A stretch of 64,000 nt of DNA from the NCBI RefSeq assembly GCF_021026375.1, contig NZ_JAJNDB010000004.1, positions 248,001-312,000 of the forward strand. The letters run 5' to 3'. A program made the position numbers and the translations under genes. The DNA is from Actinomycetospora endophytica. GTDB taxonomy: Bacteria; Actinomycetota; Actinomycetes; Mycobacteriales; Pseudonocardiaceae. Under the pieces are notes generated by a model. The model saw only the letters and a program-made list of their open reading frames with translations, made no database searches and was not told the origin of the DNA. Shown here one piece after another: positions 42,715 to 46,559 of this stretch (position 1 is its first letter; each line of letters starts with the position of its first letter).

Positions 42715-43722
42715 ATGCGCTACGACGACGACGCCCAGCTCGACACCTCCGAGGTGACCGACACCCGGGGCGAGGGCGGCGGCGGGCCGGTCGGCCTGGG
42801 CGGGGGAGGGCTGGGCGGCGGGCTCCTGCCGCTGCTCATCGGCTTCCTGTTCCGCGGGCGCAGCGGGAAGGCGAGCTGGGTGGTCATCCTCGTGGCGGTC
42901 GTCGGCTTCGTCGCGGTGCAGTACCTCGGTGGCGGTACCGGGTCGTCGTCCTCGGTGGCCGGCGGGTTCGGGGCTCCGGGCGGACCGGGGCGCGCGGGCG
43001 CCTCCGACCTCGCGAGTGAGTGCCGCACCGGCGCGGACGCCAACGCCAAGCTCGACTGCGCGATCGTCGCCGACATCAACTCCATCCAGGCCTACTGGTC
43101 GGGCGGCGGGTACGCCCAGATCGCGCCGACGGTGCGCGGGGCGGCGCCGCGCTACCAGAACGTCGACACGGTCTTCTTCTCCAACTCCGTGAACACCCGC
43201 TGCGGCAGCGCGAACTCCAGCGCCGGCCCGTTCTACTGCCCGGGCGACCACCTCGTCTACATCGACCTGAGCTTCTACGACCAGCTGAAGTCGCAGTTCG
43301 GGGCCGAGGGCGGGCCGCTGGTGAACGCCTACGTCCTCGCCCACGAGTACGGCCACCACGTGCAGGACCTGCTCGGGACCGAGGCGAAGCTCCAGACGCT
43401 GAAGGGTGCCTCGTCGGACTCGGTGCGCCTCGAGCTCCAGGCCGACTGCTTCGCGGGAGTCTGGATGAACCACGCGTCCCAGCCGGTCGGTGGGAAGCCC
43501 GCGCTGATCAGCGACATCACGCAGGCCGACCTGAACAGCACCGTGGACGCCGCTCAGCGCATCGGCGACGACTACATCCAGGGCAAGCTCGGCGGCGGGA
43601 CGGTCAACCCCGACTCGTTCACGCACGGGTCCTCCGCCCAGCGCAAGAAGTGGCTGACCACGGGGTTCACCACCGGCGACGCCCGGCGCTGCGACACGTT
43701 CAGCACGAACAACCTGGGCTGA
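42715..43722 (+). CDS. Membrane-anchored neutral zinc metallopeptidase (YpfJ family)
   Basis: 335 residues starting MRYDDDAQLDTSEVTDTRG, the family beginning. A Gly-rich stretch and one transmembrane helix (about 58-75) anchor it. The catalytic motif HEYGHH (H210, E211, H214) and the third-ligand region ELQADCFAGVW are present, with four further cysteines for disulfides outside the cell. The family is widespread but physiologically uncharacterised. Its stop codon lies in the 15-bp direct repeat that bounds the DUF559 cassette. Confidence 0.9.
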   Translation: MRYDDDAQLDTSEVTDTRGEGGGGPVGLGGGGLGGGLLPLLIGFLFRGRSGKASWVVILVAVVGFVAVQYLGGGTGSSSSVAGGFGAPGGPGRAGASDLASECRTGADANAKLDCAIVADINSIQAYWSGGGYAQIAPTVRGAAPRYQNVDTVFFSNSVNTRCGSANSSAGPFYCPGDHLVYIDLSFYDQLKSQFGAEGGPLVNAYVLAHEYGHHVQDLLGTEAKLQTLKGASSDSVRLELQADCFAGVWMNHASQPVGGKPALISDITQADLNSTVDAAQRIGDDYIQGKLGGGTVNPDSFTHGSSAQRKKWLTTGFTTGDARRCDTFSTNNLG

Positions 43723-43728
43723 CCCGCT
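43714..43728 (+). repeat. 15-bp direct repeat, left boundary of the DUF559 cassette
   Basis: CTGGGCTGACCCGCT, identical to 44807-44821. It covers the stop codon of the zinc peptidase. The pair encloses the cassette like a target duplication or an attachment core. Confidence 0.75.
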
Positions 43729-43731
43729 CAA

Positions 43732-43805
43732 TGATCACACCGGGAGGACCGGCATTGCGGATGTGGATCACCATACCGACAACGCCCGTCCTCTCGACGC
43801 GATCA
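43732..43805. repeat. 74-nt palindromic element, copy A
   Basis: Begins TGATCACACCGGGAGGACCG and ends CGACGCGATCA. The whole unit is an imperfect palindrome with a core GATGTGGATCACC. It supplies the stop codon (43803-43805) of the DUF559 gene. Confidence 0.85.
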
Positions 43806-44678
43806 GGGACGCCAGCCACGAGCCCGGAGCTCGGCGAGTGCTCGCGCCGCCACCCCGTCGAGATCACGCATCTGGTCGGCCATCACGCGCAGGACGAGCC
43901 AGCCCATCGCGCGCAGGCGATCATCGCGGTCGATGTCGCGCGCTCGCCGTTCCCGGCTCAGGTGGACCTCGCCGTCGTACTCCAGCGCGAGCCGGAACTC
44001 CCGCCATGCGAGGTCCGGACGGGCGATCACCACCCGCCGACGGTCGAGGACCCGGAGCTGAACGGTCGGTTCGGGCACCCCGCGCAGGACCAGGCCGACA
44101 CGGAGCCTCGATTCGGGGAGGGACTCCGCTCCGGGGCGAACCAGACGGGCGACCTCGAAGACCCGACGAACGCCACGCACGCCCGGATGCGCCCACCCGA
44201 GGTCACGCAGCCCCGCGCCGGTGACGGGATGCCACCGCCCCAGGGCGTCCGCCATGGCCACGCCGTCGACGACGGCGAGGCGACGCGCCAGATCGAAGGC
44301 CGTCCGCTCCGGTGACGTCACGAGGACACCGTCGACCTCGCAGACCTCGCCCGGGGCCAATGCGTCCCGACGGACCCGGACCGACGGATGCCGGAGGCGA
44401 CGGTCCGGCCGGACGACGACCTCGACGAGCTCGTCCACGGTCGGGGCGCCGTACGCGTCCGCGGCGAGCGCGCCGCCCACGACGGCGTCCGGGCCGAGCC
44501 ACTCCCGCAGCGCGAGGCGCCGCACCGCCAGGGTGACCAGCGCGAGCGAGCCGACGTAGGTGTCCGGGTAGAGCGGGACGAAGCTCGGCCCTCGGAGCGC
44601 TCCGAGCGTCACCCGGCCCTCGCGGCGGGCGTGGGAGCCCCGGAAGGGGACGGCGGTGCTCGCGTCGAGGGACGTCAC
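43803..44678 (-). CDS. DUF559/AbiEi-like protein with a PD-(D/E)xK-type nuclease domain
   Basis: About 291 residues from a GTG at 44678; the frame is open to 44750. The N-terminal part (WLGPDAVVGGALAADAYGA and later VLVTSPERTAFDLAR) resembles AbiEi-type antitoxin proteins, and the C-terminal part is a DUF559 domain: LALEYDGEVH, then RARDIDRDDRLRAMGW, ending in VLRV. DUF559 is related to very-short-patch-repair endonucleases. It stands alone without an AbiEii toxin. It is bracketed by palindromes and direct repeats, so it may be a selfish or defence-related nuclease. Target and activity are unknown. Confidence 0.75.
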   Translation of the reverse strand: MTSLDASTAVPFRGSHARREGRVTLGALRGPSFVPLYPDTYVGSLALVTLAVRRLALREWLGPDAVVGGALAADAYGAPTVDELVEVVVRPDRRLRHPSVRVRRDALAPGEVCEVDGVLVTSPERTAFDLARRLAVVDGVAMADALGRWHPVTGAGLRDLGWAHPGVRGVRRVFEVARLVRPGAESLPESRLRVGLVLRGVPEPTVQLRVLDRRRVVIARPDLAWREFRLALEYDGEVHLSRERRARDIDRDDRLRAMGWLVLRVMADQMRDLDGVAARALAELRARGWRP

Positions 44679-44726
44679 GGGGCATGGACGTGGCCCGCCC
44701 GCGCGTCGGTTCCCCGTGCCGGTAGG

Positions 44727-44800
44727 TGATCGTGCCGAGAGGACCGGCATTGCGGATGTGGATCACCACACCGACAACGCCGGTCCGCTCGACGCGATCA
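44727..44800. repeat. 74-nt palindromic element, copy B
   Basis: Direct copy of the 43732 element with seven substitutions. It lies just upstream of the DUF559 gene and could carry its promoter. Its forward reading gives ADVDHHTDNAGPLDAI, similar to the peptide made from copy C inside the nuo gene. Confidence 0.85.
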
Positions 44801-44806
44801 TGCAGG

Positions 44807-44821
44807 CTGGGCTGACCCGCT
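44807..44821 (+). repeat. 15-bp direct repeat, right boundary of the DUF559 cassette
   Basis: CTGGGCTGACCCGCT, identical to 43714-43728, overlapping the last codon (stop) of the POT transporter gene. Confidence 0.75.
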
Positions 44822-46352
44822 ACCGCACCCCGCGCATCGCCCGGCGCACCCACGGCGCCAGCAGCACGAGGACCCCGGCCAGCACGAGGGCCACGATCCC
44901 CAGCGTGGAGAAGTAGGTGCCCTCGACCGAGGGGTCGTAGTAGTCGGCCAGCGTCCCGGCGAGCGCGGACCCGAGCGATACGGAGAGGTAGTACAGCGCG
45001 ATCGTCTGCGAGCGGAAGAGCTCCGGGCCGATACGGGTCGAGAGCGACAGGCCGACCGGCGACAGGTTGAGCTCCGCCAGCGCGAACACCAGCATGATCA
45101 GGACGATCGCGAGCACCGGCGTCGTCGGGCCCGATCCGCCGGCCCACGGCAGGAACAGCAGGAACGCGACGCCCATCCCGCCGGCGCCGAGCGCGAACTT
45201 GATCGGCGTCGACGGCGCCCGGGTCCCGAGCTTGGTCCACATCAGCGCGAACAGGGGCGCCAGCACGATCACGAAGAACGGCTCGAGGGAGTTCACCCAC
45301 TCCGTCGGCATCTCCCAACCGCCGAGCACCCGGTTCAGCCGCTCGTCCGCGTAGAGCTCGACGACCGTGAACTGCTGCTGGAAGAGCGACCAGAACACCA
45401 CACTCGCCAGCCACAGCGGGATGAACGACCGGACCCGGCTGCGCTCGTCGGCGGTCACCCGCCCGTTGGTGAGCAGCAGGACGAAGAGCCCGAGGGCGAT
45501 GAGGGCGACGACGATCGCGACGGCCGTCGACAGGTTGTCCGGGGTGAGCACGCCGAACACGAACAGCAGCACGACGACGACCGCCGCGACCACGACGCCG
45601 ACCACCGGACGGATCCAGGCGCCGGGCGTCAGCGGGTTGGGCACCGTCGACGCGGTGACCGGGAGGTTCCGCCGCCCGGTCACGTAGATCCCGAGCCCGA
45701 TCGCCATCCCGACCGCGGCCAGCCCGAACGCGAAGTGGAAGCCCAGCGTCTGCCGGGTGAGCCCGGTGAGCAGCGGGCCGACCAGCGCGCCGATGTTGAC
45801 GCCCATGTAGAAGATCGAGAAGCCGGCGTCGGCGCGGGGGTCGTCGCGACGGTAGAGCGACCCGACGACGGCGGTCGCCGCGGTCTTCACCCCGCCGGAG
45901 CCGAACGCGACCAGCACGAGGCCGACCGCGACGCCCCCGAGACCCGGGATCAGCGCCAGCGCGATGTGCCCGAGCATGACGGTGCACGCCGCGAAGAAGA
46001 GCGTGCGCTCGGCGCCGAGCACCCGGTCGGCGATCCAGGCGCCCGCGACGCACGCCAGGTACACCATCCCGCCGTAGGCGCCGATGATGCTGGTGGCCTC
46101 GCCCTTGTCGAGCGCGAGTCCGCCCTGGGTGACGCTGTAGTAAAGGTACAGCGTCATCACGGCCTGCATGCCGTAGAAGCTGAAGCGCTCCCACAGCTCG
46201 ACCGAGAACAGGTTGGCCAGCGCGAGCGGGTGGCCGAAGAAGCGGCGATCGGCGGAGAAGTCCTCGCCGGCGTGCGGGGTGCTGGTCGCGACGGAGCCGT
46301 CGGCGGGGTCGTCCGCCGTGGGGCCGTCCGGGGAACCGGGGGTCGTGGTCAC
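44820..46352 (-). CDS. Proton-dependent oligopeptide (POT/PTR) transporter
   Basis: 510 residues from a GTG at 46352; the frame remains open to 46442. After a Thr/Pro/Asp-rich start, FSVELWERFSFYGMQA carries the ExxERF motif of proton-coupled peptide transporters, and GGVKTAATAVVGSLYRRDD follows with the PTR signature-like FSIFYMGVNIGALVGPLL. Fourteen transmembrane segments. It imports di- and tripeptides with protons. No peptidase gene is adjacent on the same strand, although a peptidase lies beyond the DUF559 cassette. Confidence 0.93.
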   Translation of the reverse strand: MTTTPGSPDGPTADDPADGSVATSTPHAGEDFSADRRFFGHPLALANLFSVELWERFSFYGMQAVMTLYLYYSVTQGGLALDKGEATSIIGAYGGMVYLACVAGAWIADRVLGAERTLFFAACTVMLGHIALALIPGLGGVAVGLVLVAFGSGGVKTAATAVVGSLYRRDDPRADAGFSIFYMGVNIGALVGPLLTGLTRQTLGFHFAFGLAAVGMAIGLGIYVTGRRNLPVTASTVPNPLTPGAWIRPVVGVVVAAVVVVLLFVFGVLTPDNLSTAVAIVVALIALGLFVLLLTNGRVTADERSRVRSFIPLWLASVVFWSLFQQQFTVVELYADERLNRVLGGWEMPTEWVNSLEPFFVIVLAPLFALMWTKLGTRAPSTPIKFALGAGGMGVAFLLFLPWAGGSGPTTPVLAIVLIMLVFALAELNLSPVGLSLSTRIGPELFRSQTIALYYLSVSLGSALAGTLADYYDPSVEGTYFSTLGIVALVLAGVLVLLAPWVRRAMRGVR

Positions 46353-46559
46353 GGGCGCACAGCGTGGCCCATCCGAGAGGTCCGCACCAGTGGTCGTCAC
46401 CGAAATGTCACTGCGCGTGGGTGGACGGGACCGCCGTGTCACGCCGTCGGGGTCGTCTCGGCCAGCGGAACGCGGCTCGACGTGGCCGGGTGCCTCCGTC
46501 AGGATGCGGCACGCGTCACATTCGTCACCGACCGAAGTCGCGACGACACGGAGGGCTCC

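Follow-up and report, generated by a model that had tools for sequence, protein, structure and literature searches.

A nuclease gene between its own palindromes: a putative REP/RAYT-like cassette in Actinomycetospora endophytica and other Actinobacteria

A stretch of 64,000 nucleotides from Actinomycetospora endophytica (RefSeq assembly GCF_021026375.1, contig NZ_JAJNDB010000004.1, positions 248,001 to 312,000; hereafter the window) carries a small cassette in which a single gene for an AbiEi- and DUF559-like nuclease lies between two copies of a palindrome. We found that a nuclease gene placed between its own pair of palindromes is a general arrangement among the homologues of this gene. The palindromes are specific to the gene that they flank, they are missing beside relatives with a dead nuclease domain, and scattered palindrome families occur together with particular nuclease clades, with exceptions. 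The cassette in the window is itself a recent insertion. The reading that we consider probable is a system like that of the repetitive extragenic palindromic (REP) sequences and their REP-associated tyrosine transposases (RAYTs), here with an unrelated enzyme, in which a single nuclease gene and the two palindrome copies that belong to it make up the cassette.

Palindrome pairs and the nuclease family

Homologous loci were collected from the genus and from named Actinobacteria (the best 80 of 205 relatives), and the left and right flanks of each gene were compared. Flank pairs taken across loci served as the null (95 and 99% levels), and mock genes were placed in the same loci. Ten loci were left out beforehand as duplicates or, in one case, for a broken frame (L055, L073, L071, L096, L085, L088, L086, L133, L099, and L132); two further duplicates (L087 and L196) and loci with too-short flanks were excluded from the flank count. 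A gene-specific palindrome common to both flanks was detected above the 95% level in 96 of 144 deduplicated loci and above the 99% level in 84 of them, so that the enzyme gene has palindromes of its own class on either side, as in REP/RAYT systems. Mock genes reached these levels in 18 and 2 of 201 cases. Among 18 further loci from Mycobacteriaceae, 13 exceeded the 95% level of their own null and nine the 99% level.

Several DUF559 paralogues of the A. endophytica genome also sit between palindromes that are their own and different. The original prediction had proposed a search for the 74-nt element of the window and for other DUF559 genes linked to it. Linkage of such genes to palindromes was indeed found elsewhere, in the form of own pairs, but none of the genes examined was flanked by the window element; the exact element was present in A. 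endophytica but, at E 1e-5, in no other of the 200 family genomes sampled (1/200). In the 68 loci with strong pairs, orientation was direct in 46 and inverted in 22. The stop-side ("right") palindrome either runs into the stop codon or adjoins it (median -5 nt; 10th and 90th percentiles, -15 and +48), and TGATCA was found at the nuclease stop in 15 of the 68.

A comparison of ten groups is no more than suggestive of concerted evolution of the palindrome pairs. The mean left-right score within genomes exceeded that between genomes in groups A, B, D, E, F, and H, was the lower of the two in C and G, and was level with it in the two degenerate groups. At least one cross-genome score for the same side was higher still in every group but B, a result that shared unique flanks would produce.

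Three mycobacterial loci (L299, L300, and L303) have as their flanking unit two short palindromes in tandem, each almost perfect, recalling the doublets known as REPINs (REP doublets forming hairpins).

The assignment of the enclosed gene to an AbiEi/DUF559-like protein was borne out. Pfam matched DUF559 above the cut-off (28.3 vs. 20.6 bits) and AbiEi_1 just under it (21.8 vs. 22.2), together with MTES_1575 and a single match at E 0.12; AbiEi models of the defence library also matched (E 1.9e-8). There were zero matches in NCBIfam and nothing under E 0.001 in a Foldseek search against the PDB, and the fold assignment relies on realigned Foldseek hits. The modeled protein consists of an AbiEi-like half and a C-terminal nuclease of the Vsr/I-Bth0305I (EDxHD) type, for which the homing endonuclease I-Bth0305I was nearest in model comparison. 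The D, E, H, and D columns are kept throughout an alignment of 147 proteins, except in one clade and in a handful of isolated rows. Family matches were obtained in all 18 Actinomycetospora genomes (2-13 each, fragments among them); A. endophytica has seven matches to the window protein, itself counted, and 12 to the alignment. In 18 Mycobacteriaceae genomes chosen for holding a homologue, 3-12 matches per genome were found. L060 on the one hand and L037 and L218-L220 on the other belong to two different subfamilies, yet their sites have both flanks in common, which suggests a hot spot or neighboring genes.

The clade that has lost its catalytic residues comprises L036, L070, L072, L083, L084, L202, L204-L208, L210, and L212-L217. 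A palindrome pair was detected for 95 of 126 genes outside this clade, truncated genes included (90 of 118 when limited to full-length intact genes), and for 1 of 18 genes inside it (Fisher p 1e-8, a value weakened by the relatedness of the genes). The sole degenerate gene with a pair, L210, is marginal (score 36 against 34). At the locus designated B, ten genomes have an intact gene and six others have degenerate-gene loci, the latter without a palindrome pair; when the intact genes are compared with the degenerate-gene loci, six share both flanks and four share one. Both flanks are common with another fetched locus in 14 of the 18 degenerate genes. These relatives may have been co-opted to another role.

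Scattered palindrome copies

The largest numbers of scattered copies were obtained for the palindrome family R1, which was searched with a covariance model built from 14 sequences in place of an overly noisy regular-expression search. Seven genomes with a nuclease of the L035 clade gave 135 to at least 150 matches each and ten others gave 8-51, a contrast that is rough because no more than 150 candidates per genome were scored and one palindrome may be counted once for each strand. R1 palindromes are situated at gene 3' ends: 26 of 27 fetched loci were extragenic, and 14 lay between convergent genes, 10 between tandem genes, and none between divergent genes. At least five of the 27 flank nuclease genes, and some represent the same or neighboring sites.

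Other palindrome types, named here after a locus, were less abundant. For the L069 type, the four genomes with this palindrome at their locus had 25, 9, 9, and 2 matches, or 14, 5, 4, and 0 when matches were merged by place and gene-adjacent ones removed; the other 14 genomes had 0-2 matches. In one genome (G007) this type lies beside a truncated gene. For the L227 type, which belongs to a distant subfamily, seven genomes had 10, 9, 8, 5, 2, 2, and 1 matches and eleven had none; a fetched gene of the L227 clade is present in four of the seven (G005, G013, G002, and G009). Matches to the L131 type occurred in 6 of 18 Mycobacteriaceae genomes (20, 13, 11, 7, 4, and 1); a copy adjoined by a related nuclease was found in five of these genomes. 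The 74-nt L063 type had 15 matches in G008, 14 in G002, 8 in G013, and 4 in G005, with a weak partial single match in G000 and in G010. Dispersal of the palindromes was thus seen in several families and extragenic placement in R1. In counts without phylogenetic correction, a link between palindrome and matching nuclease is apparent for R1 and for the L069 type; G002, the L063 type, and the genomes G019, G020, G022, and G030 are exceptions.

The window copy and the mobility of cassettes

The original prediction described the window cassette as a possible mobile unit inserted between a zinc peptidase gene and a POT gene, and the empty sites of relatives agree with it. The zinc peptidase is present in 17 of 18 genus genomes, A. 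endophytica included. At the 16 other loci (tblastn, with 1.5 kb fetched on the far side) the nuclease was absent throughout (0/16) and POT adjoined the peptidase in seven, which show the junction free of the insert; the remaining nine carry other genes beside the peptidase and are uninformative for the exact junction. In G010 the stop codons of the peptidase and POT genes are only 3 nt apart. The same genes are split by the insert in the window, where the junction sequence is duplicated. The window unit is a genuine insertion.

The 15-bp duplication, CTGGGCTGACCCGCT, had been noted and is identical at all 15 positions of its two copies (Table 1). The longest exact match among 1,360 random cross-locus outer-flank pairs was 11, so the 15-bp match is beyond chance. 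It had also been stated that the stop codons of the two convergent neighbors sit in these repeats; both do touch them, but that of POT (44820-44822) extends one base beyond the right copy. The palindromes are in direct orientation and 91% identical over 74 nt in BLAST, in line with the 67 of 74 noted before. The right palindrome folds at -31 kcal/mol (z -7.3, + strand) and the left one at -17.6 (z -2.9, + strand) or -21.9 (z -4.2, - strand). The longest open reading frame (ORF) for the nuclease, of 315 amino acids, begins at an ATG at 44750, within the right palindrome; relatives suggest the GTG at 44678 as the start instead. As had been noted, no transposase was recognized: the DUF559 gene was the only one recognized in the insert, by a family search that did not extend to overlapping antisense ORFs. 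Rfam gave zero matches in the window, and no intron or intein was seen, these having been sought via Rfam only. A plasmid collection gave four weak partial matches.

Table 1. Features of the nuclease cassette and of its two neighbors (positions in the window).
Feature	Position	Strand	Remark
Left 15-bp direct repeat (target-site duplication)	43714..43728	+	contains zinc peptidase stop codon
Left 74-nt palindrome, weaker hairpin	43732..43805	+	final 3 bases (43803-43805) are the nuclease stop codon
AbiEi-DUF559 (Vsr/I-Bth0305I-like) nuclease gene	43803..44678	-	start at GTG 44678 likely, by relatives
Right 74-nt palindrome, strong hairpin	44727..44800	+	upstream of nuclease gene
Right 15-bp direct repeat (target-site duplication)	44807..44821	+	
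Whole inserted unit	43729..44821	.	1,093 bp, one duplication copy included
Putative neutral zinc metallopeptidase gene (PF04228)	42715..43722	+	flanking, outside unit
POT-family transporter gene (PF00854)	44820..46442	-	flanking, outside unit

A GGAAC motif is located at 44709-44713 on the minus strand, between the start-side palindrome and the gene start. GGAAC was found in 18 of 68 cassette leaders vs. 9% of random stretches and is possibly a promoter -35 box. In four other genomes (G002, G013, G017, and G005; loci L045, L048, L052, and L054) the gap between the zinc peptidase and POT genes holds one or two solo R1 palindromes, and this gap may be a favored site for such elements.

The mobile-unit reading stands for the window copy but is not general. 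With the degenerate clade set aside, 34 of the 55 genus loci have both flanks in common with another fetched locus and 43 have at least one; most cassettes therefore look old and vertically inherited and, judged by these flanks, do not look mobile at present. Neither flank is shared in the remaining 12 genus loci, one of which is the window copy. No clean insertion of a palindrome alone was found when the fetched genus loci were compared, and the one clear length difference read (L181 vs. L175) lies away from the palindrome.

Constant-length target duplication was considered as a general rule and rejected, since of 68 cassettes the window copy alone has one, and of 23 solo copies only a tandem array. 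Homing into the palindrome, which the original prediction had brought in by its comparison with homing endonucleases, was given up as the main reading, as both empty sites that were read closely are free of the palindrome. One is the peptidase-POT junction of G010. The other is locus B in G002, where the whole cassette is gone and 64 other bases stand in its place, between flanks that are 92 and 85% identical to those of G005. At locus B in G014, only an N-terminal stretch was matched, near a contig end.

Proposed mechanism, rival readings, and known systems

In the REP/RAYT-like system proposed here, the nuclease would bind its own palindrome, probably as a dimer on two inverted half-sites, and DNA breaks made by it would lead to repair that copies the palindrome elsewhere, mostly downstream of genes. 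A nuclease-bearing genome would thereby accumulate scattered palindromes of one family. Like a RAYT gene, the cassette would normally be passed on at a fixed position, and it would move as a whole only occasionally; the window copy may be such a move, in which case its 15-bp duplication would point to staggered cuts 15 nt apart. We infer the recognition and spreading of palindromes by the nuclease, as well as its cutting of the palindrome, its dimerization, and the staggered cut. A broader proposal, on which we are evenly divided, is that a second kind of REP system evolved independently, in which nucleases of the Vsr/homing type with an AbiEi-like DNA-binding half maintain and spread families of long palindromes in Actinobacteria, free of any transposase, with palindromes and enzymes co-diverging and palindromes vanishing on catalytic loss.

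A number of observations weigh against the REP/RAYT-like reading. Among the intact full-length genes, 28 of 118 have no pair above the 95% level, including two of A. endophytica itself (L033 and L035). The degenerate genes form one clade in a tree that left out rows of fewer than 230 residues, L213 among them, and placed 17 of the 18; the loss of the pair was therefore possibly a single event. L063, to which the window protein is most closely related, carries Q at the catalytic E position but still has a strong palindrome pair and scattered copies, and copies of its type are found in G002, G013, and G005 despite the lack of an L063-like gene among the nuclease matches of these genomes. Elsewhere in its own genome, the window palindrome has just two full-length relatives, both weak and solo (C10:435823 at 75% and C10:805070 at 73%). 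Phylogenetic relatedness makes the genome counts non-independent, and of the 14 sequences in the R1 model, 12 came from genomes that afterwards scored high. G002 holds 129 R1 matches though the cassette is absent at locus B. Copies of the L227 type are present in G017 (10) and G008 (5), two genomes from which only some of the weaker homologues were fetched; G026, the genome of L140, has 11 matches to the L131 type and no nuclease match at the copies read (L266 and L271), and homologues in G019, G022, G020, and G030, 64-71% identical to L131, are accompanied by zero L131-type matches. The paired cells of R1 were high vs. slid structures; in the shuffle control all five pairing measures were below the shuffled mean, so that folding as such is unsupported. 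Lastly, the other 67 cassettes have no target duplication, nor, apart from the tandem array, do the solo copies.

The palindromes could instead be regulatory, either autoregulatory operators for the AbiEi-like half or bidirectional terminators, with the nuclease an ordinary defence or toxin-antitoxin-derived gene that moves nothing. AbiEi antitoxins are reported to bind inverted repeats of their own promoters (PMC7319586), and both the 3'-end placement of R1 and the median of -5 nt between stop-side palindrome and stop codon would suit a terminator or operator function. We nevertheless hold this reading to be unlikely: an operator needs neither a second, downstream copy nor many scattered ones, terminators require no gene-specific sequence common to left and right, and the degenerate relatives keep the AbiEi half without the pair, though they are one clade. 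Quite improbable, in our estimate, is a homing-like selfish gene whose cassette spreads by cutting its target and copying itself, and whose solo palindromes are scars of gene loss between direct copies. No palindrome exists at the G010 empty site and none was left after the loss in G002; palindrome copies (up to at least 150 per genome) exceed nuclease genes (2-13 matches per genome) where both were counted; and most cassettes are syntenic. These points stand against the nearness of the nuclease domain to I-Bth0305I, the direct orientation of 46 of 68 pairs, and the fresh insertion with its duplication in the window, all of which speak for a homing gene.

DUF559 and Vsr folds are common in defence, and the match of the window protein to AbiEi models of the defence library would agree with a system in which the palindromes mark the chromosome as self and DNA in which they are missing or out of place is attacked by the enzyme. 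No modification gene was recognized in or beside the unit (overlapping ORFs being outside the search), however, and the numbers of such marks vary widely between relatives; we consider this reading very improbable.

The comparison with REP/RAYT systems made in the original prediction fits in genome pattern. As in the accounts of REP/REPIN-RAYT (TnpA-REP) systems (PMC3686654; PMC3116915), the enzyme gene lies between palindromes of its own, matching copies are scattered and, with the exceptions given above, tend to be more abundant in genomes that have the enzyme, orthologous genes occur with switched palindromes, and the gene is mostly single-copy and vertically inherited. Cases of REP copies outlasting a lost RAYT have been described (PMC3686654), and G002, with its R1 copies and lost locus B cassette, resembles them. 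The enzyme differs, being an AbiEi-DUF559 protein of the PD-(D/E)XK/EDxHD kind and not an HUH tyrosine transposase related to IS200/IS605; Pfam and the model gave AbiEi, DUF559, and Vsr/I-Bth0305I folds. The palindromes here are about 48-74 nt long, and the one family analyzed for it (R1) has no covariation indicating recognition of a folded single strand. The GTAG/GTGG end tetranucleotide is absent from R1 alignments A2 and A4 and from the window palindromes, other families having been inspected by eye only. Because the enzyme is unrelated and the conserved tetranucleotide absent, the system is REP/RAYT-like in genome pattern and not a member of that class.

Other known systems share some features with it. 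An EDxHD/Vsr-like nuclease domain with conserved D, E, H, and D columns and a common fold relates the protein to homing endonucleases such as I-Bth0305I; the DNA-binding half here is AbiEi-like, in contrast, and the two empty sites read have no palindrome, though another target sequence is possible. One half of the protein is held in common with the AbiEi antitoxins of type IV AbiE systems, which lack the extra nuclease domain and the palindromes on both sides; an AbiEii nucleotidyltransferase toxin is not a neighbor at the window locus, where the zinc peptidase, POT, and one gene in the insert were recognized (overlapping ORFs being outside the search). Miniature inverted-repeat transposable elements (MITEs) and insertion sequences resemble the cassette in their short palindromic or inverted ends and in the target duplication at the window copy; here, no transposase was recognized and the 15-bp duplication was not seen at other copies. 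A target duplication of 15 bp is unusually long for MITEs and insertion sequences.

No description of a link between DUF559 genes and palindromes was found in the open-access literature searched. Scattered bacterial palindromes have so far been explained mainly by RAYT transposases. If the REP/RAYT-like reading is true, a widespread gene family annotated as of unknown function would gain a concrete role, REP-like systems would have arisen more than once, and the spread of such repeats could be tested with a different enzyme chemistry.
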